A stretch of 64,000 bases of DNA from Atriophallophorus winterbourni (taxonomy: Eukaryota > Platyhelminthes > Trematoda > Plagiorchiida > Microphallidae), in contig JACCGJ010018760.1 in NCBI GenBank assembly GCA_013407085.1, forward strand, positions 1-64,000, in the 5' to 3' direction. Each line of letters starts with the position of its first letter. Position 1 is the first letter of the stretch. The notes beneath the pieces were generated by a model. It saw nothing but the letters and a program-made list of their open reading frames with translations. It did not search any database and was not told the DNA's origin. This document shows, one piece after another, positions 4,203 through 55,552 of the stretch. The translations under genes and the position numbers were made by a program.

Positions 4203-4662
4203 TGAGAAAACTCAGCTTGTTGTTTCCATATATCAAGACGACATTATTATTCATGCACCCGATAATCGTGTTCACGATCAACGTTTATTAGCTTTACTCT
4301 CTCGTTTCAAACATTATAACGTGAAATTAAATCCGGATAAATGCATCATTTCTGTTGATGAGATTGATTGTCTTGGATACCGCGTATCGTCTAATCGACT
4401 CCGTCCAGATCAGAATCATCTTAAAACTCTGGTGGAAATGAAATCGTCAAATACTTTTAGTGAACTCCGTCCAAGTACCGGTATTATATTAAATAAAACC
4501 GGAAGAACTATGGTAAAAATACTTGATCTGGAAGACGGAACTGTGCACAAGCGTCATTCAGATCAAATCAACTATCAGTATTCAAGTCAGTTGCGTTCTA
4601 ATACTGGTTGCGTTAGCAATCATAACACAATACCTCTAGATTCTTCCAAGAATACTAAATAA
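4203..4662 (+). pseudogene. Ty3/Gypsy RT and integrase-end fragment, fused in frame to a LINE endonuclease
   Basis: YQDDIIIHAP (RT catalytic box with preceding Tyr) is followed by LNPDKCIISVDEIDCLGY and RLRPDQ, which are standard Ty3/Gypsy RT features. After about 70 residues the frame passes to GRTMVKILDLEDGTVHKRH-like sequence, which resembles the extreme C-terminus of a Ty3/Gypsy integrase, so RNase H and most of integrase are deleted. The open frame 4009-4662 therefore joins parts of two elements over 217 codons. RT identification is firm; the integrase end is a weaker call. Confidence 0.65.
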
Positions 4663-4925
4663 TGTCAACATGTCAGACGATCGGATAGACTGAGGAACAA
4701 ACCTATTCGAGATTACAAAATTCCGAGGACGATTGAGAACTGCGGTGGATGTCGTGATTATTCGAATAACAATCAATAATACTATACTTGTATGCCACTG
4801 TTATATAGGGTTGGTACAACGAACCACGATGTTCAGACACGGAATCACAAAGTGATTCTTGGTCACACTCAAGGCGCTTATGGATGACCAAGTATGTGTT
4901 GCTCACATCCCCATTCCGTTCCACA

Positions 4926-4962
4926 CCACTACCGGTTTCTGGCTGTTGCCGTCGTCAGGTGG
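4926..4962 (-). ncRNA. hammerhead ribozyme motif, array unit 1
   Basis: Read on minus: CCAC, core CTGACGA (position 7 is variable in hammerheads), stem II GGC/GCC with loop AACA, GAAA, stem III ACC/GGT, cleavage triplet GTA, then GTGG pairing back to CCAC. All invariant core bases are present. Weak points are a C.A pair at the core end of stem II and a loop-less 3-bp stem III, which suggests action as a dimer. Confidence 0.72.
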
Positions 4963-5065
4963 AGACAGTAGATCGGGTTCAGTGAGCCTTTGAAACAGTG
5001 GATAAAGGTAAACAAGGATATACTTGTATGCCAACTGTTATATAGGGTTCGTACAACGGACCAGA

Positions 5066-5213
5066 TTTATTCATAGATTATATGCAGGTAAAAAGCTATG
5101 CTTTACAAGACCCACAAAAATGTACATCGGTTCGGATGGTAAAAAATATCAATATATTGTTAGATTATTGTGTCAAACATAAAAACATACTTTTCCATGT
5201 GGATATCTAGTGA
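5066..5213 (-). mobile_element. LINE 3'-end insertion inside the hammerhead array
   Basis: This stretch interrupts one repeat unit between the GGTTCGT palindrome and GATGTTCAGAC. In reverse complement it matches the LINE 3' end at 10.73-10.88 kb (shared CATGTGGATATCTAGTGA and CCCACAAAAATGTACATC). It is a heavily 5'-truncated LINE insertion that arrived after the unit formed. Confidence 0.8.
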
Positions 5214-5310
5214 TGTTCAGACACGAATCACAAAGTGATTCTTGGTCAAGCACTCAAGGCGCTTGTGGATGACCAAAGTAATGTGTTGCTCACATCCCCA
5301 TCCTTACACA

Positions 5311-5349
5311 CCACTACCGGTTTCTGGGCTGTTTGCCGTCGTCAGGTGG
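5311..5349 (-). ncRNA. hammerhead ribozyme motif, array unit 2
   Basis: Same layout as unit 1, with CTGACGA, GAAA and cleavage triplet GTA intact and stem I CCAC/GTGG. One extra C lies in the 3' strand of stem II. Confidence 0.68.
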
Positions 5350-5549
5350 AGACAGTAAGATCAGGTTCAGTGAGCCTTGAAACAGTGGTAAAGTGGTAAA
5401 CAAAGTTATACTTGTATGCCACTGTTATATATAGGGTTCGTACAACGAACCACGATGTTCAGACGGAAATCACAAAGTGATTCTTGGTCAAGCATCAGCC
5501 GCGCTTATGGATGACCAAAGTAATGTGTTGCACATCCATCCTTTACACA

Positions 5550-5587
5550 CCACTACCGGTTTCTGGCTGTTTGCCGTCGTCAGGTGG
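5550..5587 (-). ncRNA. hammerhead ribozyme motif, array unit 3
   Basis: Intact core CTGACGA, stem II GGC/GCC with loop AAACA, GAAA, stem III ACC/GGT, cleavage triplet GTA and stem I CCAC/GTGG. Confidence 0.72.
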
Positions 5588-5751
5588 AGACAGTAAGATC
5601 TGTTTCAGTGAGCCTTGAAACAGTGGTAAAGTGGTAAACAAAGTTATACTTGTATCCCAAAGTATATATTGTTCGTACAACGAACCACGATGTTCAGACA
5701 CGGAATCACAAAGTGATTCTTGGTCAAGCACTCAAGGCGCTTATGAATGAA

Positions 5752-5795
5752 CTGTCTCCATCTGATGACGGCAAACAGCTAGAAATCGGTGAGGG
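5752..5795 (+). ncRNA. degenerate hammerhead motif in inverted orientation
   Basis: CTGATGA and GAAA are present, with CGGC-AAACA-GCTA between them. Stem III has become ATC/GGT and the cleavage base is G, which hammerheads do not accept, so this copy should be inactive. It is on the opposite strand from the rest of the array. Confidence 0.55.
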
Positions 5796-5837
5796 TGTGT
5801 ATGGGAGGGGGTGTGAGCACCACAATACATTGAATGT

Positions 5838-6520
5838 GTTCTGTTTGCAGATGGTCTAAAAATCTGGAGGTGGATATTTTCTGCTGCAGATTGTGATATA
5901 AAACAATGGAATTCGGAAACCGTGTCAGATTGGGTGGTTCCTAATGACATACCATTTAATATATAGAAAAGCAAGATGATCTAACTAGAAATGAATATTT
6001 TGTGGGCACATTGACTCGGAACTGAAATCTTGGCATGGATCATTGAAAAAACCCTTGGAGTATAAATTAGCGAGAAGCTGAAAAGCACAGTTTGCTTCTA
6101 GAATTTCTATCGTAGGCCAGCAGATTGTTACGGATATTTCAAAAAAAATTGGAAGATTTTTGCAAGTAACGTTACCAAGGTTAATTAATGTCTAACATTA
6201 CAAAAAGATGGAGTATGTTAGTCATGGTTTCTTTACTTCGGAGAGGTTTTGCCACTTTTGATATACTTATCGAAATTAACAAAGCTAGTGATAGTTATTC
6301 GAAATGTTCCCTACACCGAAAGATCGCGACGTTTGGGTCTATGCCACTTTAACCGATGGACGATACGGCGCGATATTATCCTTATTTCTGTGACTACTAA
6401 TGAGTACCATGTTCTTTGAAATATTCACAAATTTGATCACGACGGTCCATAAAGGAATTTATAGAATTGTCTACCGAGAACATCCACTAAAACACTTGTT
6501 TGAGGTGTGTGATGAGAAAG
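5838..6520 (+). pseudogene. degenerate CR1/Jockey-like reverse transcriptase remnant
   Basis: It starts with VLFADGLKIWR (the catalytic FADD has become FADG) and, after frameshifts, continues with a C-terminal LINE pattern near 6295-6410 (RNVPYTERSRRLGLCHF, RRDIILISV). It is many mutations away from coding and abuts the end of the hammerhead array. Confidence 0.5.
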
Positions 6521-9539: not shown

Positions 9540-9845
9540 TAGATGCTATAATTTACAAACAGCACGAAACCGGTCGTGGGTGTGTGATGGAAATGCATGC
9601 AAATGAGCTATTTGGTTCATGGTCATGGATTCGAACCCAGTCTAAATGAGTGTGGGCTCATGTGATTGAACAGGTTAGTCGTACCCACCTTACCCAAAAG
9701 TGGCATACAAGCGCAACTTGTTTACCATTGTTCCACTGTTTCAAGTGCATGCGGATCCTGATCCTACTATCCCTACCTGATGAGTGCAAACGGCACGAAA
9801 CCGACCGTGGGGTGTGTGATGGAAATGCATGCAAATGAGCTTTTT
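9540..9845 (+). repeat. hammerhead repeat, subfamily b, partial dimer
   Basis: Two copies in tandem: ACGAAACC recurs at ~9562 and ~9795, a 232-bp period. Each copy ends with GATGGAAATGCATGCAAATGAGC-like sequence. The first copy lacks its CTGATGA half but keeps CCGGTC-GTGGG; the second keeps CTGATGA but has a changed cleavage site. The linking sequence (ACTGTTTCAAG, GCGGATCCTGATCCTAC) is specific to this subfamily. Confidence 0.7.
9772..9811 (+). ncRNA. hammerhead motif with canonical stem II, broken cleavage site
   Basis: CCTAC, CTGATGA, GTGC-AAACG-GCAC (four perfect pairs with the preferred G-C next to the core), GAAA, CCGACC, GTGGG pairing back to CCTAC. Related copies read CCGGTC where this one reads CCGACC, so the conserved U before the cleavage base is lost here. 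Confidence 0.7.
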
Positions 9846-9849
9846 GTTC

Positions 9850-10569
9850 AAAATGGAAGTGGGCTCAAATCAACACGCAAATGATATTGGTGTCAAACGA
9901 ACCAACAGCAATTGTGAGGAGAACCAAATTTCTCTAACTTTTGTTTGCAGCAAGATGAAATTGAATTGTTGCGCGAAATTAAGCTGATTTCTGTAGTATT
10001 CGGTGTCAATGTGACCAGCCATGAACCTTGTCCAGATCTAGTTAGGGGTTCAGCATGTCATCTGTGGAGTTTATCTCACACCAAATCTTCGCGAAGATAA
10101 TAATCTTTACTAGCATAACTTCTTGAACACGGAATGTTGGCTAACTTTTTTAATCGTAATATACCCAGGGGAACGGTGAGTTTATGCGGTTGCAAACTTG
10201 AGTTGATCAGATACCGGACTTTGAATACCAACGGTAAATTAGGTTGGTATATTAGACGAGGTTAGACTAAGCTTCATGCCACAGAATAATGCTATCACTA
10301 CATATGCCGCATCTGATTATAAAGCTCGTTTAAAAAGAGTGGTGGCATCGGGTAAATACACTTTTCGTTTCTTCGAAAATGTTTGAAGCATACTGAGAAA
10401 TTCTACACTGTGGTCAATGAAGCTGAGCTTGTTGGGAAATTCAATGCACCAAATGCTTCATATCGTTTTAAACCTGAATTTCTAATCAATTAATAGCAGG
10501 TTGTGTTAGAAAAATAAATAGTTAATAGGATAAACCACAGATGTAGAACAACCTCAACCTTGCAGTCAC
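9850..10569. other. mostly unrecognised sequence
   Basis: No supported gene. The stretch leads into a LINE C-terminal fragment at 10570 and may include its decayed upstream part. Confidence 0.3.
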
Positions 10570-10890
10570 TTGTTTCATCTTTCCCATAACACACATCTGT
10601 GTGATCACCAATCTCAACGTTACCAGAAGCATAGCAGGTTGAACTGTCGCAAATATGCATTTTCCGTTCGCAATGTGCAATTGTGGAACAGTTTACCTAC
10701 TCATGTGGTACAATCGGGAACCATTGACGTTTTCGAGAAATCACTAGATATCCACATGGACAAGTGTTTTCAAGTTTGAAAATAATCTCTAACAATATTT
10801 TGATATTTTTACCATCCGACCCGATGTACATTTTTGTGGGTCTTCTAAAGCTTTTTACCTGCATATCATTTATGAATAAACCTCAAAGGG
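10570..10890 (+). mobile_element. LINE C-terminus and 3' end
   Basis: The ORF 10570-10779 reads SRLNCRKYAFSVRNVQLWNSLPTHVV, the usual C-terminal end of CR1/Jockey RTs, with stop at 10779. The 3'UTR (10780-10870) ends near ATGAATAAACC. The same 3' end is inserted in reverse at 5066-5213. Confidence 0.72.
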
Positions 10891-11756: not shown

Positions 11757-11878
11757 AAAAGTGTACAAGGCTCACTGAACCTAATCTTACTGCCTCCACC
11801 CGATGACGGCAAACAGCCAGAAACCGGTAGTGGTAAGGGATGGGGATGTGAACACCGCAATACAGTGTACAAGTTTAT
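11757..11878 (+). repeat. partial hammerhead repeat, subfamily a
   Basis: About half a unit (AAGGCTCACTGAACC through GGGATGGGGATGTGAAC), in inverse orientation to the 4.8-5.8 kb array. Confidence 0.75.
11796..11833 (+). ncRNA. hammerhead motif with a core mutation
   Basis: CCAC, CCGATGA (the invariant U4 is C), GGC-AAACA-GCC, GAAA, ACC/GGT, GTA, GTGG. Pairing and cleavage triplet are kept; the core change should abolish activity. Confidence 0.6.
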
Positions 11879-12058: not shown

Positions 12059-12517
12059 TTAGTGGCTTAGAGTTTGGAAGATGTAATATTTAGCAATAGA
12101 GGAAAATCTTCGTAGCTCAGAATGTGGATGGCGTTCACCTTGTGTTCGCCGAGCTTGCGTAGTTGTTCTTGGACGTTTCGTCACCAGGCTAGAAGCGTCC
12201 TGTAGTTGGAATTTGTTGGTTATTATACCGTTTGCCTGTCGGTTCACGGACACTCTCGCGTTGATTTTCCTTTCAAGTCGTTTTGTCAGGTCTTCGTTTA
12301 TCCGTCTGTATGTTGTTGTATCACGGAGTAGTTGTTCAGCTTTCTCGATATATTCTGCCTTGTTCATTACGACGGTCATTCTTCCTTTGCCAGCGGGAAG
12401 TATAACGATGTTCTGGTCTCGTTTCAGTTTGTTCAATGCTTTGATTTCCTGTTTATTGAGTGACGTATGTTCTATGTTTGCTCCCCCGCCATTAGACTCA
12501 CCTGCATTATTCTTCAC
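12059..12517 (-). pseudogene. Penelope-like element RT N-terminal fragment
   Basis: The frame reads EIKALNKLKRDQNIVILPAG, then KGRMTVVMNKAEYIEKAEQL and DTTTYRRINEDLT. This block is characteristic of the N-terminal RT part of Penelope-like elements (PLEs). The frame then shifts; a second frame near 12090-12150 holds the part that would precede the first conserved RT blocks. No GIY-YIG endonuclease is seen, so this is a ~460-bp remnant. Hammerhead repeats lie on both sides (11.76-11.88 and 12.88-13.17 kb). Animal PLEs are known to carry hammerheads in their terminal repeats, but the complete ribozyme next to this copy is on the other strand. Confidence 0.72.
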
Positions 12518-12756
12518 ATCATCTAAGCATTCCTATTTATTTATTTTCTTGAAAAGAATGTCCTGTCAATCAACAGAGGCATTGCGGTTATTGTATGACT
12601 GAGTTGTCTCCGATGATTTGATTCGAAACATGACCCATGATCGACACCTTGAACTTGTATGATTGATCAGTGTCATTTCGTCCAGTATTGCCCACCCACT
12701 GCAGATCATTCTTCTACAGGGGAAACGAATTATTCGAAAATGAAAAAAATTCACAC

Positions 12757-12875
12757 ATTTTTAATTCGCTCGTTATTTAGACCGGTACCTCGATGATCAA
12801 TAGAAGACGCGACTGACTATTTGGATTTCGATATGAAATCTCAACGTGAATCTTTTTTAGAATTTTTGTGCTGCA
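12757..12875 (+). repeat. left direct repeat flanking a hammerhead insertion
   Basis: It matches 13168-13312 over ~115 bp (TTAATTCGCTCGTTATTTAG, GAAGACGCGACTGACTATTT). The pair brackets the hammerhead repeat at 12876-13167. Confidence 0.85.
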
Positions 12876-13167
12876 GAATCACAAAGTGATTCTTGGTCAA
12901 AGCACTCAAGGCGCTTATGGATGACCAAAGTAATGTGCTGCTCACATCCACATCCCTTACACACCACAACCGGATCTTGTGTCTGAACATCGTTGTTCGT
13001 TGTACGAACCCTATATAACAGTGGCATACAAGCATAACTTTGTTTACCACTTTACCACTGTTTCAAGGCTCACTGAACCTGATCTTACTGTCTCCACCTG
13101 ACGACGGCAAACAGCCAGAAACCGGTAGTGGTGTGTAAGGGATGGGGATGTGAGCAACACATTACTT
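12876..13167. repeat. hammerhead repeat, inverted partial dimer
   Basis: It begins exactly at GAATCAC-AAA-GTGATTC. Up to ~12974 it has the array orientation (the truncated ribozyme ends in ACCGGAT); from there it continues in the opposite orientation through a full ribozyme. The two halves are thus head to head. Confidence 0.8.
13094..13131 (+). ncRNA. hammerhead ribozyme motif, intact core
   Basis: CCAC, CTGACGA, GGC-AAACA-GCC, GAAA, ACC/GGT, cleavage triplet GTA, GTGG. It is identical in core and pairing to the array copies but lies on plus. Confidence 0.72.
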
Positions 13168-13312
13168 TGTACATATTTTTAATTCGCTCGTTATTTAGAC
13201 CGTTACCTGGATAATCAATAGAAGACGCGACTGACTATTTGGATTTCGACATGAAATTTCGACGCAAACAAAGTCTACGTGAACCTGTTTTTTTTATAAT
13301 TTTTGTGTCGCA
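13168..13312 (+). repeat. right direct repeat flanking the hammerhead insertion
   Basis: Counterpart of 12757-12875, with scattered substitutions and a small insertion (GCAAACAAAGTC) near 13262. Confidence 0.85.
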
Positions 13313-13645
13313 ATTAATAAGATCGTTGAAAAGCTTCTGACAGATGGCCATACAAAGCCATCAAATTCATTTTCCTTCACCGATAACAGAAAATCATAAT
13401 CAAAAACAACAAAGCTAGGTGAAAACCGAACTGAAAACGCCGGGATCATACACGACGAAAGACATCAACACCATTAAACGTTCATTAATGGGGCATTAAT
13501 ATGCATATAAAAACAGGCTTATTGCTGTAACTAAAACAAATGGTATTGATCGAATTTTTGTGTTAATGGATTCGTTGCATAATTCAGCCTTTAGCTTCTG
13601 ATAAGACGGGTGTTCCGAGAAGAATTGCAAATTTAGACACTCCTC
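13313..13645. other. no recognised feature
   Basis: AT-rich sequence between the direct repeat and SINE-1; nothing recognised. Confidence 0.35.
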
Positions 13646-13648
13646 ATT

Positions 13649-13893
13649 CGTATGCACGGATGTGCAATCGTGCAGCATTTCTGTGCTGTACGGCTAACAT
13701 CGTGCTAAATTGATTGACCAACGGTAGTGAGCTGCATGCTGAAACACGTTGCAGTCTCACTACCATTTCTATTTCATTTTCCCCCTCATATCTGTCTAGG
13801 CCTGGGCAACCTGACAGTATCTTAGCCCACGTGCAGTCTGAATGTGCGGCACTTTGCCTGGATCAGGCATGTACTTTCATACCATACCATACC
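13649..13893 (+). mobile_element. SINE-1 copy (near full length)
   Basis: A ~240-bp short interspersed repeat seen about 15 times here. It starts near GCACGGATGTGCAATCGTGC, passes GGCCTGGGCAACCTGACAG and GCGGCACTTTGCCTGGATCA, and ends in CTTTCATACCATACC. The simple-sequence end (CATA or ACCATACC) marks the 3' tail. No convincing pol III A or B box was seen, so its origin is open. Short ORFs across it are shadows. Confidence 0.8.
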
Positions 13894-14205
13894 ATTCTCG
13901 ACATCTCTGTACCAACAGAATTACAGGTGTACTTTTCTTCGTTTAATATTCAATGGGTTCCACGTAGATGTATTAGTGATGCTTCCGGTGGGCACGTTAA
14001 ATCAAATGCGCCGATGGCTTCGTCCTTGATGGTCGCAGGTCCAGGAACTTCTTGGTAGTTTGGTGAGACACCTATTTACAAACGCCCGGAGCATATAGAC
14101 TCAGCTATCAATAATATCCGATGACTATTTAATCACGGTTAAATCTCTATGCTAAAGGCAGATTTACTAATTCCAAATATGGTTAACTGCGATAGCATGA
14201 TGAGT

Positions 14206-19311: not shown

Positions 19312-19514
19312 AACATGGAGTAGTATAACGTAAATGGTGACACTAGAGTGACGTAACGCTGTGTACTGGAAACAACTAGCGAAGGGTTAAGCAACAAACA
19401 GGTGATGGCGAGGGAAAGGAATCCACAAGCGCGGCGGAATACGAACCGGGACTAGCTAATTGAAATTCAAACAGCCCCGCAGTTCCTTTAAAATGACGTA
19501 GGCACCAATATATT

Positions 19515-19715
19515 TTGGCGCTCACATCCACATCCCTTACACACCACTAACGGATTTTGGCTGTTTGCCGCTATTAGGTGGAGACAGAAAGATAAGGTTC
19601 AGTGAGCCTTGAAACAGTGGTAAACAAAGTTATACTTGTATGCCACTGTTATATAGGGTTCTTACAAAGAACCACGATGTTCAAACACAGAATCACAAAG
19701 TGATTCTTGGTCAAG
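19515..19715 (-). repeat. partial hammerhead repeat, subfamily a, degenerate
   Basis: It shares ATAGGGTTC, GATGTTCAAACACAGAATC, AAAGTGATTCTTGGTC and the ribozyme region (19543-19580) with the array. The ribozyme core is mutated (CTATTAG in place of TCGTCAG), so it should be dead. It lies in the last intron of the SOCS-box gene. Confidence 0.75.
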
Positions 19716-19874
19716 CAGAGCTACGCAACTTTTTATTTTAATTTAAGTGCATCTTATGTATGTATTTATATGTGTATGTTTGTATGTATAAAAATAAGTC
19801 TGATTCTGGGCTGAGATACCGTCAGCTTTCCCCGGTCAAAACAGAATAATAATAATATAATCATCATCGAATAC

Positions 19875-20939: not shown

Positions 20940-21185
20940 CTCTTCAATCATTCATCAGGTAGGCTCAGGATCCGCATGCCTTAAACAGTGGGAAAATGGT
21001 AAACAACTTGAACATGTATGCCACGGTTTAATAATGCTGCTACGGTCAACCCGTTGCATAACATGTCCGCGCGCACACATGGATGGGCTAAAGCAATCAG
21101 TATTTACATGCATTTCCATCTAACACACTCCACGACCGGTTTAGTGCAGTTCGCATTCATCAGGCAGGGACAGTACGATCAGGAT
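20940..21185 (-). repeat. hammerhead repeat, subfamily b, two copies
   Basis: TCATCAG (reverse of CTGATGA) occurs at 20952 and 21157, a 205-bp period. The second copy reads, on minus, CTGATGA, ATGC-GAACT-GCAC, TAAA, CCGGTC, GTGG: a changed GAAA but an intact cleavage triplet GTC. Confidence 0.65.
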
Positions 21186-21269
21186 CTGCATGCCTTAAAT
21201 CAGTGGAGAAATGGTAAAAAAAAGTTTAGCTTTGCCACTGTGTCAAAGCATGCGGATTCTGACCCTACT

Positions 21270-21845
21270 TTACTTACTTTACTTTTGTGCGACTATCTCC
21301 GTCTGGAGGATGAGCCGACTTCAATGAAGATTCTTCGGAGTTTGGGTACAAAGCGGCGTCCCCAGCACCACTCGGCGTTTGTTCGAGTCAGCTTCTCTAG
21401 CCTTTGCACAACCAAGTGCGACCTGCAAGGCAGCAGGGTGTTGCCAGAAACAGGTGGTGTGCACCCACTAATAGTCTGCCAGACTCTGTTTCAGATTTTT
21501 CCCCAGGGTTTTCTCCCAAAACCGTTCCCGCGATCGGGTATCCCGCAAGGCAGCGGAGGTTTAGAATCAGGGTTTTCCTTCCCTTAGATGAAATGCCATC
21601 CCACGCTAACAAGCTCCATCTGCCCGATGCCAACTGGTTTACAGGCGCCAGTCACTCACCCTCGCCCCTTCTCCTGTTGGTAGAAGCAGTTCCGCCGGGC
21701 TTGGGGAGCCACTCGTGCAGGCCAGAAGCTGGACTTGGTTGTCAGAGGCTATTTGAGACGCATGCCATATGGGAGCATTTTAAAAACAGTAGGAGCTTAT
21801 CCCCACTGCCACCCCCCGGCTATGACAACCTTTGGAACCGATCCT
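21270..21845 (-). mobile_element. R570, full-length non-autonomous RTE derivative
   Basis: Read on minus, it starts near GGTTCCAAAGGTTGTCATAG with the 5' block shared with the RTE at 360-560 (GGGATAAGCTCC, GTCCAGCTTCTGGCCTGCAC, GGGAAGG) and ends with CATCCTCCAGACGGAGATAG and TAAAGTAAG, the 3' end of RTE-2. It therefore joins an RTE head to an RTE-2 tail with no RT between. Plus-strand ORFs up to 189 codons across it appear fortuitous. Confidence 0.7.
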
Positions 21846-22103
21846 ACTTTACCTAGCTGATGAGTGAAAAGAACACGTGGTGTAGTGCGTGATTGAAATG
21901 CATCTGCAAGCCTACGAGTTTAACCATCTAAATGTGTGCGAGCACGTGTGATTGAACAGGTTGGTCATACTAGCCTGATATAACAGTGGCTTACAACCGC
22001 AACTTGTTTACCATTCTTCCAATGTTTCAAGCGTATGCGGATTCTGACCGTATATTCACCTTACCTGATGAGCGTGGGTAGCACGAAAGCAGATAAATCG
22101 GAG
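21846..22103 (+). repeat. hammerhead repeat, subfamily b, degenerate dimer
   Basis: CTGATGA at 21857 and 22065, a 208-bp period. The second copy keeps CTGATGA and GAAA, but stem II pairing is poor and the cleavage region is lost. Confidence 0.6.
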
Positions 22104-22475
22104 ACATTTGGAGCACCCGTCTTATGCAATCTCCATATCTTCTGGCAAAATAGTATGCAGTGGAAGTCGTATGGTTAACGGTCCTGCCGAAATATAACTC
22201 TTTTAATGTTCTAATCGCTTGTGGGAATAGGTGACTACCACCACCTCAATGCACTCAGTCAAAACAGAATCAACGGCCTAGGTGTAAAACTGATACTTTA
22301 ATACGTTTGGTATTCAGTTTAGTGGTTTTCAATGCGTAGCACTGCATAGGTCACGAGTGAACCACAAAACAAACACGCTTTACAAAAACGAGGTACTAGT
22401 AAAACTTTTCAGGAGCGACAAGTATTAAGTTGACAAAAGCAAATCAAGCACGTGATGCGTAGGACATACGATTAC
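22104..22475 (-). other. intron sequence, nothing recognised
   Basis: Start of the intron after the large SOCS-box exon. Confidence 0.4.
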
Positions 22476-23588
22476 CTGACTTGGATCGGGAATAGAGTCA
22501 CTCGGGGAGTCAAATTTACGCGCCCCGATGTTAATGGCAGGCTCTGAATGTCGAAGTGCAGTCGGAGTGGGAGGATGATGAAGATCGCCAACAGACAGGG
22601 TACACACGGATGCGGTCTGTTGTGACGCGAGCGGAAAGCTTGATCGATTACGCACCGGGATGTACATTTTCGTAAACACTGCTAGCCTCGCACCACAGCG
22701 ACTCATTGTGGGCATATAGTTAGTAGGACAGGTGTGGATCGGGCAAACGGGTCGATCAAAGCGGAGGGTGTGAATCCTGGTCAAAGTGTCTGAGTCGAAT
22801 ATGGTCAACCATAGAGTGGTGCAACCGGGTAAGGTAGGAACACACAAGGACGGTGAAAATAGACCCAGAGACGGCGTATCGCAGTGACCATGACTACTGG
22901 TGGGAGGATTTGGTAGAGCGCTAAATGGGTGTTGGTGAAGCAGACGGGTACCATCGATTTCTAACCCTGAATTTGGACTTGGAAATGCACAAGGTTGAGT
23001 GAAATCCTCTAAAATCATACAAGGGAGCAGCACCGAATTGGATTGGTGATTTATAACCGAGCAACGGCATTCGCGATGTTCCGTGGACACGACAAATGAA
23101 AAGTAACCATCACGGGAATAAAATATGTTCAAAATATTCGGAGGAGGGAAAGTGACGCCATCCGTTAAATGAGCCCTTCTTCTTCCTCCTCCAGAAATCG
23201 AGCGAAAGTTACTAACGGGAGAACCTCTCCCGGCAAGTGAAGGACAGTTGAAACTGGTGGTGGTTGCAATGGTTTCCCATGTAGGCAGAACCATCAAACT
23301 GATACTGGGTTTGTGTTCATTCACCGAGCTCAAATTGGATATCGCGATTCGTGAGCGCAAAAAGCGTGGATCGAATGCGAAGCGATTTGTGGTCAGTTGA
23401 GAGCCAACCGGCAGCGAGAAATCGGGAGCGTGTGCGGTGTGGAAATCTTGCGGACGCGTTCGGTTTTGGTCCTGATTAGAGCCAAGCGGGTGGCGGTGTG
23501 GAATGAATGGGGCGAAGCGAGAAGACGGAGCGACGTGAGTGGCTAGATTGATTTCCATCAAAAGTTCACAGCCCTTAAGGTCGTACAA
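22476..23588 (-). CDS. SOCS-box gene, large central exon
   Basis: 371 codons, phase 0 at both ends; acceptor TTTAACTTTCAG, donor CAG|GTAATC. It starts LYDLKGCELLMEINLATHV, passes a low-complexity Pro/Ser/Arg region, then conserved-looking cores SLMVLPTWETIA, YSRDGYFSFVVSTEH and TLWLTIFDSDTL, and ends after IHTCPTNYMPTMSRCGARLA and a polar tail. Short hydrophobic strands between polar turns suggest a beta-propeller, but no WD or Kelch signature is clear and the ortholog was not recognised. An open frame extends 5' (to 23639) and 3' past the splice sites, so the exon could be misread as an intronless 404-codon gene. Together with the C-terminal SOCS box it is a candidate substrate receptor of an Elongin-cullin ligase. 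Confidence 0.78.
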
Positions 23589-23873
23589 CTGAAAGTTAAA
23601 CAGAGACCGATCATAATAAGTAGGTGAGCATACGATCAAACAGGCAGGAAATGGAAATCTAATTTAACTCGATAAATCAATGCATCGTTTGGTTTCTTAG
23701 ACGCACGCCAAAGTTACTGAATACAACAGAAGTGTTCAAACACTGGATAAAATTGTATGTATTGTATAGTAAACCTTCCAAAAGGGAATTAGCCGCTAAA
23801 TGGCCTACCATATTTCCGCGCATTGTCTAATAAAAAAACTTTAAAAAACAACAAAAACGTATTGTTACATCTT
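23589..23873 (-). other. intron sequence, nothing recognised
   Basis: Upstream intron of the large exon (23589-28703 in all); this part holds no recognised repeat. Confidence 0.4.
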
Positions 23874-29371: not shown

Positions 29372-29491
29372 CTGAAAAACATGGTAGCGTTTGGTTCATC
29401 AGTTAAATTGCAAAAAAGTGTTGAGTTCCTATAATCATACAGATTAGCGTAGGATAGACATTAACAAATGATATTTGTATGGCCAACGTAT

Positions 29492-29600
29492 TGTGGTGCT
29501 CATATCCCCATCCCTTACACACCGCTACCGGTTTCTGGCTGCTTGCCGTCATCAGTTGGAGACAGTAAGATCAGGTTCAGTGAGCCTTGGATTTCTGATC
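29492..29600 (-). repeat. partial hammerhead repeat, subfamily a
   Basis: Half a unit (CTCATATCCCCATCCCTTAC to TTCAGTGAGCCTTGG). The ribozyme segment 29522-29559 has core CTGATGA, GAAA and GTA, but stem I pairs poorly (CCAA against GCGG). Confidence 0.7.
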
Positions 29601-34089: not shown

Positions 34090-36480
34090 TACATCATCAT
34101 CATCATGAAGCACAAGTCTGGAGCCAGACAAAGTGCCAAGCAATATGAAGCAGGAAAAGCAGATAAGCAAGCGCGTGGAAAAGGGAAAGCAGGCAAGCGG
34201 AATACGCAAAAGCAAATGCACAAAAAGCAGCTTGTTTTTGTAGTTTCACTGCATGCGATTTTTCGGGTTTTTTTGTTTTGTTTTTGTTTTTTGTTTTTTT
34301 TTATGTAAAATAATACCGAATAAAAAATTATGACACACATAATAAAATACACTGGCGCCACTGACTTCGGTTTGTAGCCATATCGCGTAAGGTTTCCAGC
34401 CAACTATTAGGTGGAGCTTTTGGACCCCACCCAGGCAAACGAATACGCCCAACTGAGCCTAGCGCTACGGTGAGTTTCTTCATCCCAACGCGCCACGTCA
34501 TGGACTGGCCACCCGATCTTTTCTTCCAGCTTCTGTCAGGCTCTGCGAATAAGGCGCGGTACGGTAAACGGTGAGTAGGCATTCTTAATACATGTCCCAA
34601 CCATCGCAAGCGAGCAAGCATCAGCATTTCTCTCAGTCCGCGGCCACCTGGTCCTAACACCCGCTTGCAGACATCTATATTTGTAACACGATGCTGCCAC
34701 CGAATGCGAGCAATTCTACGCAGGCAACGGGTATCAAAAACAGAAAGCCGACGGACATCTTCCGCTCGGATAGACCAGGTTTCGCAGCCATAAAGGAGTG
34801 TAGCACGCACCACTGCGTTGTACACTCGGCCTTTAGTATGGAGTGAAACATCGCGTCGACGCCACAGGTGGCGAAGGTTAGCAAACGCTGCACCCGCTTT
34901 GCGAACACGATGTGAGATCTCGTCCTCGACACAACCTCCAGCGGAGATACAACTGCCAAGGTAAACAAAGCTGTCGACCAATTCAAGATTGACATCGCAC
35001 ACAGTTAGGTTTGGAAGAGAGCCGCTCCAATCCTGGGTAAGTGTTTTACACTTGTTAGGCGCAAAGCACATGCCATACCTTGAAGCTTCAAGTGCCAGGC
35101 GGTCCAGGGCTTGTTGCATTATATGAGGGTCGTCTCCCAGAAGTGCGATGTCATCGGCATACTCTAGATCGGTCGCTCGCTCACCCGGCAGAAGTTCAAC
35201 ACCTGTGCCCACCAGTCCAGCTAAAGCTTTTCTCAGGACATCGTCGATCGCGAAGTTAAAAAGGAACGGCGAGATAGGGCAGCCCTGCCGCACCCCGCTG
35301 GAGATATTGAACGAGGACGACAATTGTCCGTACGCTCGAACCCTGCCCGAAGTTTGGCAATATAATGCTTTCAAGATCCAAACATACTTCTCGGGCACTC
35401 CATGTCTCAGTAGACAGTTCCAAAGTCTTTCACGATCGATTGAATCGAATGCCGCTCGGATGTCAAGGAATACCACGATAGTTGGTTTACGAAAAGTGTG
35501 GCGTTGCTCCAGTAACTGACGGAGTGTGAAAATTTGATCTATGCACCCTCGGCCGGCACGAAACCCAGTTTGCTCCTCACGGATTTGCTCTTCCCGTTTG
35601 GTACTCAATCGGTGAAGCAGAATGGACGCCAGTATTTTAGGAGCTACTGAAATGAGACTGATACCCCGATGGTTTTCACAGGAATCGCGCCGTCCCTTTT
35701 TGAAAATAGGAGCAATTATTGATTCTCTCCAAGGGATCGGAACGCGTTCCTCAGCCCATATGTTGGCGAACAGCGCTTGAAGTTCGCGAACTAAAGCGAA
35801 ACCGCCATCTTTGAACAATGACGGAGGCAAAGCATCAGCACCTGATGCCCGATGGCGCTTAAGGCTCCGGACTACACTGTAAATCTCTGATTGAGTCGGA
35901 GCCTCAAGAGAAATCGACCATGGGGTACAGTGTTCCGTATTCTCGAAATCAGTGGGTGCAGAAGGCCAGTTAAACTGTGCTTCAAAATGTTCTGCCCATC
36001 GCTCCATGCGTCTGTGCATGTTAAAAACTGGCAAACCATCTGCTTCACGTATCAACGCACTGATGCCTGGTCGCCCGCTTCCAGTTGTTCTGATGAGTTG
36101 GAACAATTTTCTGAAATTGCCTACAGCTGCCGCAGATTCCATTTCCGTAGCCTTAGAACTCCACCAACTTTCCCTGTCGGTTCTCAAACTGGCAACCAGT
36201 TTACGTTTAATAAGCCTTCGTGACGCATCATGTATGCTATCAGCAGAAAGCAACCGACGTTGGTCCATTAATTGGAGAGAATTCGCAGAAACCCAGTGCT
36301 GAGCTACACGGGAAGTCAACCCACAACTATCCAACGCTGCTGTTTCCAAGGAGGTTTGAATCCCACTCCATTGGTCATCGATACTATTTTGGGGAACTGT
36401 AGACAGATGCAGACTCAAATTGGCCTGAAACCCTCGGAGAACCGGGAGATCGTTAAGCCTAGCAACATTCAACTATATTT
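34090..36480 (-). mobile_element. RTE-1 copy C, longest RT-bearing copy
   Basis: The ATG-repeat tail (34093-34108), ~230 bp of 3'UTR and a long RT frame. The 5' end is replaced at ~36480 by other sequence. Endonuclease pieces of the same family lie beyond, at 37060-38700. Confidence 0.88.
34328..36472 (-). CDS. RTE-1 reverse transcriptase, open over 714 codons
   Basis: The longest open frame in the window. After a linker (~1-230) come the RT blocks: HRASGADALPPSLFKDGG (~205-225), WRESIIAPIFKKGRR (~250), HRGISLISVAPKILASILL (~270), VVFLDIRAAFDSIDR (motif A with catalytic Asp), SGVRQGCPISPFLFNFAID (motif B) and LEYADDIALLGDD (motif C), then thumb and C-terminal parts ending RDMATNRSQW. All catalytic residues are present and the frame has no stop, so this RT may have been active recently. 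The N-terminal APE endonuclease needed for target priming is not in frame. The start Met is arbitrary, because the frame is cut by the junction at 36480. Confidence 0.88.
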   Translation of the reverse strand: MNVARLNDLPVLRGFQANLSLHLSTVPQNSIDDQWSGIQTSLETAALDSCGLTSRVAQHWVSANSLQLMDQRRLLSADSIHDASRRLIKRKLVASLRTDRESWWSSKATEMESAAAVGNFRKLFQLIRTTGSGRPGISALIREADGLPVFNMHRRMERWAEHFEAQFNWPSAPTDFENTEHCTPWSISLEAPTQSEIYSVVRSLKRHRASGADALPPSLFKDGGFALVRELQALFANIWAEERVPIPWRESIIAPIFKKGRRDSCENHRGISLISVAPKILASILLHRLSTKREEQIREEQTGFRAGRGCIDQIFTLRQLLEQRHTFRKPTIVVFLDIRAAFDSIDRERLWNCLLRHGVPEKYVWILKALYCQTSGRVRAYGQLSSSFNISSGVRQGCPISPFLFNFAIDDVLRKALAGLVGTGVELLPGERATDLEYADDIALLGDDPHIMQQALDRLALEASRYGMCFAPNKCKTLTQDWSGSLPNLTVCDVNLELVDSFVYLGSCISAGGCVEDEISHRVRKAGAAFANLRHLWRRRDVSLHTKGRVYNAVVRATLLYGCETWSIRAEDVRRLSVFDTRCLRRIARIRWQHRVTNIDVCKRVLGPGGRGLREMLMLARLRWLGHVLRMPTHRLPYRALFAEPDRSWKKRSGGQSMTWRVGMKKLTVALGSVGRIRLPGWGPKAPPNSWLETLRDMATNRSQWRQCILLCVS

Positions 36481-36950
36481 ATATATATTTTTACACAATC
36501 ATTTAAAAATGACAAAGTGCCACCCAATCAATTTGGGTGTGGGCGTGATACTACCCGGTTGCCCAGGCCGAAGTAGAGGAGTTGATCTTGAGGACTCCCG
36601 CCTCAAGCCTTTGGCCCGAAAGCCTAACCCGCAAGGCAGCGGAGCGAGATTAAGGATCGCACCTATCGGGGCCGGATACTGTAGGTACAGTTCACAAGCC
36701 ATTCGCGAGGTAGAGACCAAGCAGGGACTCCCGACATCATCCCAACCAGTCGAGCCGGTGAGCCTTGTGGATTCATACGCCTCTTCTGGTATACAATGTC
36801 CGCGAGGGACAAGGAGACTGTGTTTGTCTGGCTTCTCACCATTGACCAACCTGGTATGAGTAACTCTGAAGATGCCACGAAGACATCACCCAGTATAGCT
36901 CAATGGATCATCGAGGCACGCAAGCCGCTGCACCACGTCAAGGTCCAGTC
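36481..36950 (+). repeat. unclassified GC-richer dispersed segment
   Basis: A non-coding block containing GGTTGCCCAGGCCG and a stretch shared with 31627-31721. It lies between RTE-1 RT and endonuclease parts and resembles a retroelement 5' region. ORFs on both strands here look fortuitous. Confidence 0.45.
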
Positions 36951-37022
36951 TCGGCGCAACGGTCCAGTCTCGGCGCAACGGCGTCCAGTCTCGGCGCAAC
37001 GGCTCCAGTCTCGGCGCAACGG
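36951..37022 (+). repeat. minisatellite, 4 units of ~18-20 bp
   Basis: CCAGTCTCGGCGCAACGG is repeated four times with 0-2-base spacers. It lies at the broken end of the RTE-1 endonuclease. Confidence 0.9.
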
Positions 37023-37059
37023 AAAAGGTGGTTTTGTTTTGTTTGTGTTTGTACCGCGG

Positions 37060-37606
37060 AAACGAGTACGAGCGGCAATCTTGCACACTCCCTCGCCAGG
37101 AGTAGCTGATAGCAATATGGTCAATTTGCGTGAACAAGGCCGCCGATGGAGATCTCCAAGTGGAGCAGTGGCGCTTCGAATGGCGGAAGTTAGTGCTGGC
37201 AAGGTACAATCTGTGCCCTGAGCACAAGTCAAGCAATCTTTCGCCGTTGTCATTACGATGACAATCGAGACCAAACCGTCCACCCACGAAATGCTCGTTT
37301 AAGGATAGACGGCCAACACGTGCATTCATGTCTCCAGCAAGGACAACGATGTCACTCCTCGATGCAAGTCTAATGAGTTCTTGTAATCTTCCATAAAACT
37401 CATCCTTGTCACGTTCAGAGCTACAGTTAGTCGGTGCATAGGCAGCAACCACAAACAGGTCGCGGGATTGGTTGCGAAATCGGCCTTTTTTTTGCACGAA
37501 CCCTGTAGTCTTACTGCACAAAGGCGACTGTCGACTGGGATCCAGTCTAACAGTGCGACCTCAGCTCGCTCACTCAAGACGATTCCGACACCAGCTTGAC
37601 CAGATA
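37060..37606 (-). pseudogene. RTE-1 endonuclease, partial (piece 1)
   Basis: Two frames: AEVALLDWIPVDSRLCAVRL (37622 frame), then after a shift FVVAAYAPTNCSSERDKDEF, IVVLAGDMNARVGRLSLNEH (catalytic Asp/Asn) and ALFTQIDHIAIS. The N-terminal third is missing because an R570 piece cuts it at 37607, and the C-terminal SDH part is lost at the 36.95-37.06 kb junction. Confidence 0.8.
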
Positions 37607-37822
37607 CATCTGCCCGAAGCAAACTGGTTTTCAGGCGCCAGTCACTCGCCCCTTCTCCTGTTGGTAGGACCAGTTCCGCCGGGCTCGGAGAGCCACTCGT
37701 GCAGGCCAGAATCTGGACTTGGTTGTCAGAGGCTATTTGAGACGCATGCCATATGGGAGCATTTTATAAACAGTGGGAGCTTATCCCCACTGCCAACCCC
37801 GGCTATGACAACCTTTGGAGCT
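37607..37822 (-). mobile_element. R570 head fragment between two endonuclease pieces
   Basis: It matches 21620-21840 (GTCACTCGCCCCTTCTCCTG, GAGCCACTCGTGCAGGCCAG, GGGAGCTTATCCCCACTGCC). It separates two RTE-1 endonuclease copies. Confidence 0.75.
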
Positions 37823-38700
37823 TAGCACAGACTAACGCATGATTTGACTCTAGACAGGTATCCCAGTATGAACGGCAATCTTGCACAATCACTCGCCACG
37901 AATCGCTGATAGCAATATGGTCAATTTGCGTGAACAACGCCGCCGAGGGAGATTTCCAAGTGGAGCAGTGACGCTTCGAATGGCGGAAGTTAGCGCCGGC
38001 AAGGTAGAGTTTGTGCTCTGAGCACAAACTAAGCAATCTTTCGCCGTTGTCATTACGATGGCAATCGAGACCAAACCTTCCACCAACGAAATGCTCGTTT
38101 AAAGATAGACTGCCTACACGCACGTTCATGTCTCTAGTTAAGACAACGATGTAACTCCTCGGTGCAAGTCTAATGAGTTCTTGTAATCTTCCATAAAACT
38201 CATCCTTGTCAAGATCAGAGCTAAAATTAGTCGGGGCATAGGCAGCAACTATAAACAGGTTGCGGGATTGATTGCGAAATCAGCCTTTCTTGCACGAACC
38301 CTGCAAAAAGGCGACTGTCAGCTGGGATCCCGTCTAACAGTGCAACCTCAGCTCTCTCACTCAAAGCGATTCCGACAACAGATTGAGCAGATACCATGAC
38401 ATCGTCATCAGTGGACAGACGTAGATAGTGTAACTTGCGTAAGTTCGAAGTGTTAGACAATCGTATAACTGAGCTAGAGTTATGCATGCGTGTTTCCGAC
38501 AAACAGCACACATCGACGTCGAGGCTATCAAGCGTGCGAGCCGAGACTGCCTGCTGTCCGATGCTAGCTAAAGTCCGTACATTAAGCGCCGCTAATTTGA
38601 ATGGTACGCGCGGGCGGAAGAACGCTCTGGAGGCATTCGAAGCAGGCAAAATATTCGAAGTGGCTAAATTTGGAAAGCTCAATGAACAAGCTGCACTTCT
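37823..38700 (-). pseudogene. RTE-1 endonuclease, nearly complete (piece 2)
   Basis: The start region FKLAALNVRTLASIGQQ (catalytic Asn) and VDVCCLSETRMH (Glu) come from ORF 38682-38227; after a gap with shifts, NVRVGSLSLNEHFVGGRFGL, QIDHIAIS and LESNHALVCAKL come from 38129-37803. GDMN is degraded (ATTTAGAGAC-type change at ~38130), and the final SDH is SNH, an Asp to Asn change at the catalytic position. Not functional. Confidence 0.8.
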
Positions 38701-39001
38701 GTTATGGCTACCGGAAGAACCATAAAACGGAAAACAGTATTTAAAAAAGTTTGCATGCAGCAGAAAAGCAGAGACTTCAGGCGTGCAGCAAAATGTTTCA
38801 TTCGAAGTCCAATGTTTTCCCTGGTTTGCCTTTCAACTGGGCGACTAGTTTCTGCATCTTAATACGAGAATAAATCGAAATCCTGTTTGAGTAAAACGCT
38901 AAGTTCAAACATGCGTTTCCTGCTGTTTTGTAGCGAGCCCAGGAACTATGAGTGAGGGGTTCCCGTTCTCGAGTAAACCAACAAACTTGAGTAGTACACT
39001 A
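38701..39001. other. no recognised feature
   Basis: Possibly the RTE-1 5' leader on minus; nothing decisive. Confidence 0.3.
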
Positions 39002-42023: not shown

Positions 42024-42860
42024 TCACAACTTTTTTAGTTTCAGTGGAAGATCCCAGTGATATGACCAGTTCATGACCCGCTCAAGGTCGTGCATCAAGG
42101 TATCTTCAGCCGTTGATCCGATGAATTTCACATCATCCGCGAAAATGAAGCATGGGCACTTCAATTCGGAGGACAAGTCACGGATGAAAATCAGGAATAG
42201 AAGAAGACCAATTACCGAACCTTGCGGTACACCACTGATCACGTCGGTTTGATTCGACAGCGTAGATCCTACTCTCACTCGGAATGTCCTACCAGTAAGG
42301 AAGACCTTTATCCAAGCAAGTAGACTACTCCGTATGCCATTGGCTGCAAGCTTAATCTCTAGAAGCCGGTGATTTACGGAATCGAGAGGCTTGCTAAAGT
42401 CTGGGTAGAGGGCTTCGACAGGCTTCCCTTCATCCATCCTTTTAATGACAGTATTGAGAAAGCTAAGAAGGTTAGTCAGGTAGGATCTACCCTTAGGAAA
42501 TTCATGCTGAGTTACACTCAACAGAGAATGCCGACAAAGATGTTGACAGATTTTATCACACAGCAGTTTTCCCATTACTTTCGAGACGATGCTGGTCAAG
42601 CTGACCGGTCTATTGCTACCAACAGTTGACCTGCAACCACCCTTGTGTATAGGTACCACTATGGCTTCCCTTCACTTACTTGGAACAACTCCTAGTTGCA
42701 GGCATGAATTAAAGACCTGGCAAAACGGTTCGACAAGCACTGAGGCAAGATTTGTAAGCATAATGGAGTAGATGCTGTCCGGTCCCTCAGATTTGTTGAC
42801 CTGGACATGGATAAGTGCGTCAAACATCTCAGCCTCATTGAAGGACATTTCAGTAAGATG
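42024..42860 (-). pseudogene. CR1-A reverse transcriptase, palm half
   Basis: Two frames: FNEAEMFDALIHVQVNKSEG, PDSIYSIMLTNLA (42860-42672) and VPIHKGGCRSTVGSNRPVSL, ALYPDFSKPLDSVNHRLLEI (DFSKAFD altered), ISGVPQGSVIGLLLFLIFI and FIFADDVKFIG (42659-42024). The catalytic FADD is intact, but motif A reads FSKPLD and a frameshift separates the halves. It is the continuation of CR1-A interrupted by LINE-B. Confidence 0.82.
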
Positions 42861-44742
42861 CAATCTACTAGACATTGATCCGCTATGGTTACGCAGAATT
42901 CGCCTTAATCTTTTTCTTTTCTTCCGAATCATCACAGAGCACCAAGTTAAGCTTAGATCTACCATGCGCTTCCAAGATTGCAATCGTTCTGTACGACGTA
43001 ACCGAATGAGGCTATTACATATTCCCCTTACTCGCACTAAAGTTCGACAAAACCTCTTTTTAATTAGGTATGCGCATCTTTGGAATTCTCTTCCACTCCA
43101 TTTCCGCATGTGCACATCTGCAGGTAAATTTAAAACACTCGTAGATTCTCTTACTGCTCCATCGCTATGCGAAATTCTGAAAATAAACACTTCTATAGAC
43201 AATATATTTTGTCACAGTATTCCTGGTTATTGAACCAGTTGTATGTATTTTGTACACTAGCACACATATAGAACTGTTCACAATGTCCGAAATACATGGT
43301 ATTATTAAGTGTCATGTTAATTAGTGTCTATGTATGTTTCATCTATTTCTACTCTTCCCTCATATCTGTCTAGGCCTGGGCAACCTGACACTATCTTAGC
43401 CCATGTGCAGTCTCTGACTGTGCGGCACTTTGCCTGGATCGGGCTTGTGCTTTCATACATACATCAAAACCTGGGACTAGTATTATATGTACCTTTACTT
43501 TTTGTATCTCTTTAGTCAGGTTACTTAGGGTCTATGTATGTTACATCTATTTCTATTCCCCATTTCATATCTGTCTAGGCCTGGGCAACCTGACAGTATC
43601 TTAGTCAGGTTACTTAGGGTCTATGTATGTTACATCTACCTCTATTCCCCATCTCATATCTGTCTAGGCCTGGGCAACCTGACAGTATCTTAGCCCATGT
43701 GCAGTAACCTTATCGTTTCAATTCAGGTTTATATCGTAAACAAATGTCTCTAAAAAAATAGAAACATCTAAAAAAATTATTTTTCTGATTAGATATTTAT
43801 AACGCTGCTGTAGTGTCAGGTTACATAGGGTCTATGCATGTTTCGTCATAGGTTGGGACTTGCATCACATTTTTCTATTTGTCACATTGCCTTCCATGAC
43901 ATTTTCTATACACCATTATGTATATATCTTATAAATGTCACATTTTTATCCAAACTTGCAAAAAAATAAAATCTACCAAAAAAATAAAAAAAAGTAAAAA
44001 AAAACCTGAAAATGTACATTCTTATTTTTCAAATGATGAACTATTTTACTTTGATGACCTCTCACCATGATGGTGAAGAGAATATCTTTCATTATATTCC
44101 AGTGTCTTCGAATACCGAACCATCAGTGAAACTGGCTCGAAATCTATCTGCTTGAGATTTGTTTCATTTGCGATTCACTCTCCTGCAGATAACGAAAACC
44201 CGGCTGGTGAACACATTTTGGCTCGAATCGTCGACAATTCTTCAAGAGTATTGGAGTACACAGCGTACCCTACTCCCATGCTTTTAACCACACCCTCTTT
44301 CATCCCCCAGAATTTCTTAGATTTTCTTATTCTGATGGATTTATGTTCAATTTTCCATCCTCTCAACCAATCTCTCCGTAAAAAAACATAAATTGATACA
44401 TATATAATTTATTTATCAATTTTTTATGACAATTTATTACAATTCACTTCACATTTTCCATAATTACCTTCCATTTATGTTCTCCATGTTTTCCCATCCT
44501 TGCAATTCGTAAATTCTGACAAAATTTAAATGAAATCTTATTGTTATTAGACATGAAGATTTTTTCTTACTTTCTGTATATTCGTTTCCATTATTGAACG
44601 GAAAAAATGTTTAAAAATCCCGCTCACTTCGGTCATTTGCACCGTTATATTTTTTTTCTTTTGCTGTTCCAATTTTGATAAACTGATCATGTATTACATG
44701 CCTTGGATATCCAAGAATATATATTATTATTATTATTATTAT
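42861..44742 (+). mobile_element. LINE-B 3' part inserted in CR1-A
   Basis: Plus-strand C-terminal frame DPLWLRRIRLNLFLFFRIIT, VRQNLFLIRYAHLWNSLPLH to HSIPGY (stop ~43233), then a ~1.5-kb 3'UTR and an ATT-repeat tail (44725-44742). A second copy at 56.4-57.8 kb shares both coding end and UTR. SINE-1 pieces interrupt the UTR at 43335-43710. Confidence 0.82.
43335..43710 (+). repeat. SINE-1 pieces and a 92-bp tandem of SINE plus UTR
   Basis: A SINE-1 3' half (43345-43466), then two ~92-bp units (about 43514-43605 and 43606-43697) each joining GGTTACTTAGGGTCTATGTA (LINE-B UTR) to GTCTAGGCCTGGGCAACCTG (SINE-1). The unit was duplicated after the SINE arrived. Confidence 0.8.
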
Positions 44743-46003: not shown

Positions 46004-46035
46004 TACTTGGGCACTGGTTATTCGTGCTTCTGAAA

Positions 46036-47354: not shown

Positions 47355-47575
47355 CTTACGGCGAAAAATATAAGTAACGATAATGTACCAGAAAGATTTT
47401 AGATTGATTTAATCACAAGCGTAATTAATCAGCACGAAATATAATGGACGATTTGCTTCTTATGAGGTAGCAAAATAGTTAGACTATTTTACAGTAATTT
47501 CACAGAATAGCGAAAAAGCGTAATAATTTTTAGCAGAGCGTTGAAAATACAACCAAGTTGAACGCACCGCGCACT

Positions 47576-53288: not shown

Positions 53289-55552
<2,264 letters not shown>

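Follow-up and report, generated by a model that had tools for sequence, protein, structure and literature searches.

Hammerhead-bearing tandem repeats in a digenean-fluke-like genome and the enzyme that might move them

The 64,000-nucleotide stretch of DNA analysed here (the window) contains a tandem array whose units carry a hammerhead ribozyme motif, which raises the question of whether these repeats are mobile elements and, if so, which enzyme copies them. A preliminary description had reported tandem repeats of ~238 bp at 4770..5822, and the unit length was confirmed as 238-239 bp. The tandem arrangement held up in part: an array does exist, but with a total extent of 4783-5832 it is not a plain tandem, being interrupted by an unrelated 148-bp repeat (5064-5211) and terminated by an inverted piece (5751-5832). 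Likewise, the four hammerhead copies noted earlier, three in the array and one at 13094-13131, were found again, but they are joined by further copies in elements E3, E4, E5, E6, E7 and E8. These sequences are judged to be a real family of hammerhead retroelements, one that is probably partly decayed. Its main interest is that the ends of the elements could show which enzyme moves retrozymes.

Eight elements in two subfamilies

Every element was mapped on one scale of unit coordinates, 1-239, whose count starts at the predicted cut site. The window holds eight elements (Table 1) belonging to two subfamilies, A (E1 to E5) and B (E6 to E8). The subfamily-A unit is 239 bp long with a GC content of 0.448, and the subfamily-B unit, at 231 bp with a GC content of 0.472, can be aligned to A throughout its length. 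Elements are dispersed, occur in either orientation and are variously truncated, and direct joins from one unit to the next are present in both subfamilies. With respect to size the family resembles retrozymes, in that tandem units fall in the range of ~150-450 bp, GC content is <50% and the frames leading from the hammerhead are short. Two of the truncated copies, E4 and E5, have the same start (unit 175) and nearby ends, and perhaps represent a distinct short form of ~110 bp.

The unit includes a TATATAA motif, and in some copies the hammerhead contains an ATG. Among nine copies, this ATG is present in E4, E6b, E8 and E1inv, and E2 and E1c read ACG instead. In E4 and E6b, reading from the hammerhead ATG meets no stop for at least 22 codons and reaches the shared 3ˊ end considered below, and others among the copies have stops. 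Open frames of this length are common by chance.

Table 1. Positions of the elements, their hammerhead motifs and associated features in the window
Feature	Positions	Strand	Description
E1, array of ~3.5 head-to-tail subfamily-A units	4783-5750	minus	239-nt period; unit position 40 to 147
E1inv, inverted 5ˊ piece of E1	5751-5832	plus	faces array head to head; covers unit 198 to 38
Hammerhead E1a	4926-4962 (core 4936-4958)	minus	core intact; loop II one base shorter; cut site predicted 5ˊ of 4929
Hammerhead E1b	5311-5349 (core 5321-5345)	minus	core intact; one additional C in stem II; cut site predicted 5ˊ of 5314
Hammerhead E1c	5550-5587 (core 5560-5583)	minus	complete core, 4-bp stem I; C.A at stem II base; cut site predicted 5ˊ of 5553
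Unrelated 148-bp repeat inside third E1 unit	5064-5211		86% alike copy at 10743-10880
E2, inverted 5ˊ piece	12877-12973	minus	unit 86 back to 234
E2, direct piece	12981-13170	plus	unit 90 to 38 of next unit
Hammerhead E2	13094-13131 (core 13098-13121)	plus	complete core, 4-bp stem I; C.A at stem II base; cut site predicted at 13127/13128
E2 flanking direct repeat, left copy	12753-12872	plus	
E2 flanking direct repeat, right copy	13171-13310	plus	94 aligned bases, 92.6%
E3, subfamily A	19504-19717	minus	near unit length; core decayed
E4, short subfamily-A copy	29481-29589	minus	unit 175 to ~46; core bases retained; stem I broken, 2/4 pairs
E5, short subfamily-A copy	11766-11863	plus	from unit 175; core positions C3U4 = CC
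E6, subfamily B	9556-9850	plus	one 231-nt unit and partial ones
E7, subfamily B	20950-21242	minus	decayed; >1 unit
E8, subfamily B	21836-22088	plus	decayed
Penelope-like N-terminal-part fragment	12149-12481	minus	best E 6.6e-9; within 157-aa open frame

The hammerhead motif

In the three E1 units the motif runs in the order CCAC-CUGACGA-stem II-GAAA-CCGGUA-GUGG. The earlier observation that these copies and the one in E2 keep all invariant core bases proved correct: CUGANGA, GAAA, U16.1 and H17 are retained in all four, and each also forms four of four stem I pairs. The strict hammerhead layout proposed for every unit applies to the order of the core but breaks down at stem II, given the deviations of E1b (an additional C) and E1a (the loop) and a closing pair (10.1-11.1) that is C.A in all eight aligned subfamily-A copies, so that an intact stem II is not seen among them. 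A G-C pair at the stem II base occurs in only one of ten aligned copies, E6b. This alignment of ten copies leaves out four that are truncated or decayed. Five of the ten retain a complete core (E1a, E1b, E1c, E2 and E4), which in all of these except E4 is accompanied by the 4-bp stem I, and the other five each have a core base missing. In E1inv, the cleavage position is occupied by G.

Stem III consists of the loopless palindrome ACCGGU. For this reason a single copy cannot form stem III, and activity would need two copies pairing; two such palindromes can indeed pair with each other to create a continuous 6-bp stem. This anatomy supports the previously suggested combination of a very short stem III with hammerheads that would work as dimers. 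When a double hammerhead was imposed on two E1c cores, its computed energy was -23.7 kcal/mol, compared with -5.8 kcal/mol for a lone core lacking stem III. In both cases a different fold has a lower predicted energy, with minima of -26.4 kcal/mol for two cores and -9.4 kcal/mol for one. Folding of the unit as a circle was barely better than that of shuffled sequences for subfamily A (z -1.97) and not better for subfamily B (z 0.31).

Two features, the C.A pair at the stem II base and the loopless stem III, count against activity. Such defects need not be fatal, because axolotl retrozyme hammerheads with comparable defects cut better as dimers. PMC7229834 (Cervera and de la Pena 2020) describes two of them: in one, stem III is a single pair that carries a palindromic tetraloop, and in the other the stem II base is U.U.

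A search of the window with the Rfam hammerhead models, which the preliminary description had named as a check, did not favour the motif. Across the whole window no match reached the gathering score, the array region (4400-6200) gave no match even at E<=10, and no hammerhead was found in the E2 region (12500-14000). The only match is a weak one in subfamily B, where the E6 copy at 9771-9812 scored 21.1 bits against RF00163 (Hammerhead_1; E 0.012 in a 401-base search), short of the gathering score of 34. This copy has a proper stem II (GUGC/GCAC) and has lost U16.1.

Using a full-motif descriptor that allows one stem II mismatch, we found three sites in the window, where 0.05 were expected from 60 dinucleotide shuffles (largest count 1); E1b, with its additional stem II base, fails this descriptor. 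Since the three sites derive from one repeat lineage, they correspond on their own to a window-wide event of ~5%. Pairing in register is seen in 80% of cells, compared with 28-45% after sliding, and the covariation score was matched by 3 of 500 shuffles. Covariation as such is thin, however, as two pairs are changed on both sides, a number also obtained in 105 of 500 shuffles, and one of the two comes from the copy with G at the cleavage position. Conservation of the core columns is not significantly higher than that of the flanks (1255 of 20000 random column sets), and a special conservation of the hammerhead core was rejected on this basis.

Passive satellite DNA, in which the hammerhead-like motif is dead or due to chance, would be in keeping with an array that goes unmatched by Rfam, a C.A pair at the stem II base and a core that lacks excess conservation, and such motifs are expected at a rate of ~0.05 per shuffled window. 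We nevertheless regard this explanation as very unlikely in view of the separate weak Rfam match in subfamily B and the presence of dispersed truncated copies, two of which have flanking direct repeats. A chance origin is improbable because subfamily B is matched separately, if weakly, and because the pairing sits in register. Judged by its sequence, the motif very probably represents a true hammerhead lineage in which many copies are dead.

Insertion anatomy and candidate carriers

The inverted and direct pieces of E1 and E2 are contiguous in unit coordinates, with 198-38 followed by 40 onward in E1 and 234-86 followed by 90 onward in E2. Such abutting coordinates are expected if the 5ˊ part of one RNA was copied inverted. 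E1 is over three units long and E2 over one, which means that the copied RNA was a multimer or a circle, the alternative being growth of the array after insertion.

Two elements are flanked by direct repeats. E5 lies between 10-bp copies of AGTGTACAAG at 11760-11769 and 11864-11873, and E2 lies between copies of a repeat of at least 94 bp that, in the window, is present at the two flanks of this element only. Both agree with the target site duplication (TSD) of >4 bp that retrozymes have when one is present. A repeat of at least 94 bp is unusually long for a target site duplication. The test for flanking repeats covered seven elements, all but E8, and at the ends of five of these (E1, E3, E4, E6 and E7) no exact words of 7 or more were found; the 7-mers seen at E1 and E6 are away from the ends or within the element.

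The 3ˊ ends of the elements are partially clustered. By their BLAST edges, the ends of E2 (38), E3 (23), E4 (46), E5 (29) and E6 (44), five elements out of eight, fall at unit 23-46. The remaining ends are at 147 in E1 and, by estimate, at about 209 in E7 and about 232 in E8. The unit profile was built from segments trimmed near unit 39, and the profile ends were not used for E2 to E6. Clustering of five ends in 24 nt was equalled by 1828 of 100000 random sets and clustering in 13 nt, with the ends of E3 and E5 extended by hand, by 166 of 100000, both widths having been picked post hoc from data already seen. Because these 3ˊ ends are past the cut site, reverse transcription of the copies concerned began somewhere other than the 3ˊ end of the ribozyme product. 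No poly(A) or simple 3ˊ tail occurs at the element ends inspected. The truncations, inverted 5ˊ pieces, flanking repeats and 3ˊ ends suggest retroelements and point less to passive satellite DNA.

The explanation we put first, with a confidence that stops just short of even, is that these are short non-autonomous retroelements of the animal-retrozyme type, which carry a minimal type I hammerhead of the newt and Penelope sort, reside in a digenean-fluke-like genome and are copied by a Penelope-type reverse transcriptase. In this scheme the tandem locus would be transcribed, and the hammerheads of two units, paired through the ACCGGU palindrome of stem III, would cleave at GUA^GUGG and release ~239-nt RNAs, which might be circularised. 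A Penelope-type reverse transcriptase would start internally, ~25-45 nt downstream of the cleavage site, and read one or more units. The outcome would be copies that are 5ˊ-truncated and at times 5ˊ-inverted, some with target duplications.

Penelope-like elements with minimal hammerheads have reportedly been described, by Lunse in 2017 and by Cervera in 2014. According to PMC11167929, a Penelope element acts on both DNA strands, which it cuts and extends, and starts reverse transcription inside the RNA, downstream of the hammerhead; this internal start accounts for the genomic 'tail'. In the Penelope element of Adineta (PMC3846280) the pLTR measures 218 bp and the tail 31 bp, the 5ˊ side carries an inverted pLTR and the TSD is 9 bp long. 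The elements in the window recall this anatomy in part, with 3ˊ ends at unit 23-46 in five of eight and inverted 5ˊ pieces in two of eight, but have no ORF. More broadly, they resemble Penelope-like elements in having a minimal hammerhead, a (partial) tandem arrangement, an inverted 5ˊ piece, 3ˊ ends past the hammerhead and TSDs in some copies, and differ from them in that no reverse transcriptase (RT)/GIY-YIG ORF lies inside the units or is joined to them. The start sites in PAc are 111-118 bp into the ORF and the hammerhead cut is at 26, whereas the 3ˊ ends in the window are ~23-46 nt past the cut. The open frame of E4 and E6b, running to the shared 3ˊ end, also faintly recalls a Penelope pLTR plus tail.

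Protein comparisons used the best 120 of 1675 Penelope-like proteins at E<=1. Named sources among these best 120 are mostly flukes and tapeworms, and the few bacterial bins among them were taken as contamination. Compared with this set, the window has one place at E <0.01, the N-terminal-part fragment listed in Table 1, whose sense is opposite to that of the direct pieces in the adjacent elements E5 and E2 and which is joined in sense to no unit. The units have no meaningful similarity to the best 120 proteins (translated units, best E 0.018). Peptides from the hammerhead frame of three real copies reached a best E of 0.060 against the same set, at a place that is not N-terminal, and many of the compared proteins are N-terminally incomplete. 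The possibility that the unit encodes a hidden Penelope N-terminus was also pursued with a 52-aa composite peptide, which gave no candidate, and by eye in 21 long Penelope proteins (several apparently N-terminally incomplete), which revealed no counterpart. A 412-aa frame at 22425-23663 was rejected as a Penelope ORF, having no Pfam family, and no Penelope contigs were confirmed in a viral contig collection.

No Penelope coding part, and hence no RT/GIY-YIG ORF, is attached to any of the eight elements. As there is no direct link between a unit and a Penelope ORF in the window, we infer the carrier. The anatomy suggests, rather than proves, that Penelope elements either move this retrozyme-like element or gave rise to it. 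A more specific proposal is that a Penelope-like element of flukes shed its ORF and that the unit corresponds to its pseudo-LTR and tail, which spread as a retrozyme. We consider this doubtful, but if it were true, retrozymes, or this lineage of them, would be direct Penelope derivatives, and the genomic 3ˊ ends would be set by Penelope's internal start of reverse transcription and not by the ribozyme cut.

The same features could be read as the debris of full Penelope-like elements, consisting of solo pseudo-LTRs with tails that formed arrays by template jumping, with no independent retrozyme family. Unit length, tail-like 3ˊ ends, inverted 5ˊ pieces, the TATATAA motif and the ATG in some hammerheads all fit a pLTR. 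However, the lack of a coding part on each of the eight elements and the direct unit-to-unit joins in both subfamilies argue against debris, which we judge to be quite improbable.

A different carrier is conceivable, namely a LINE unrelated to Penelope that moves a SINE or retrozyme of the Smalpha type. The inversions would then reflect twin priming, and the cluster of 3ˊ ends would mark a transcript end or a LINE recognition site. Inversion and truncation at the 5ˊ end are traits of LINEs too. LINE frames that include endonuclease and RT domains are also abundant in the window. LINE-type frames on the minus strand are located at 34328-38832, 42024-47408 and 49671-50309, and some have endonuclease, RT or DUF6451 matches in a Pfam search that covered 30 of 74 listed frames. 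Among the best 120 of 177 matches of the longest LINE frame, the best is 66% over the whole query, with shorter matches of up to 75%. The named matches within these 120 are mainly from Dicrocoelium, Trichobilharzia, Schistosoma and Paragonimus, mostly at ~50-60%, and the others are from snail, insect and tapeworm together with a few bacterial names, which were taken as contamination. On account of these mainly fluke matches we call the genome digenean-fluke-like.

An exact 75-bp tandem duplication is present at 2560-2710 within a LINE reverse transcriptase frame, and a 332-aa frame at 53561-54559 (minus) has a below-cutoff match to DUF4371 and is possibly a transposase remnant.

A LINE carrier would also suit units that have no coding similarity to the best 120 of 1675 Penelope proteins, and there is a precedent among flukes in Smalpha, an element that resembles SINEs and contains a type I hammerhead (PMC8490949). 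Two observations weigh against it: the element ends inspected have no poly(A) or simple 3ˊ tail, and 3ˊ ends just past the hammerhead together with inverted 5ˊ pieces are what has been described for Penelope (PMC11167929 and PMC3846280). We consider a LINE carrier unlikely on this evidence and retain Penelope-type copying as the preferred reading.

Comparison with known systems

The kind of element encountered here is already known, as there are published cases both of tandem repeats in flukes whose hammerheads have a short stem III and of retrozymes in platyhelminths. This family itself may be new. No description of it was recognised in a literature search that had most subscription papers outside its reach. 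DNA-pattern scans of viral contigs and genome contigs with the motif gave no matches; these collections are viral, bacterial and archaeal and so are silent on novelty.

Among flukes, the closest published parallels are the Schistosoma mansoni elements W25.2, W26.2, W27.2 and W36.2 (Smalpha), which according to PMC8490949 are tandem repeats with type I hammerheads. The likeness also lies in the extremely short stem III and in the occurrence of full and partial copies, which for the W-elements are autosomal. Published unit sizes of the W-elements are different, W27.2 being 403 bp long and W36.2_W001 335 bp, for example, and the comparison is one of descriptions, not of sequences.

Metazoan non-LTR retrozymes with such units, platyhelminths included, are described in PMC7229834. 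The present family agrees with them in its short low-GC tandem units, type I hammerhead, lack of a long ORF and TSD of >4 bp when present, and amphibian retrozymes with a weak stem III likewise act as dimers. It differs in that stem III has no loop at all, the stem II base is C.A and the family is known from DNA alone. The same paper names LINEs or Penelope elements as the movers of retrozymes, with Penelope elements as strong candidates that have yet to be demonstrated in this role. With 3ˊ ends shared past the hammerhead in five of eight elements, together with inverted pieces, the question of what moves retrozymes becomes testable from genome sequence alone.
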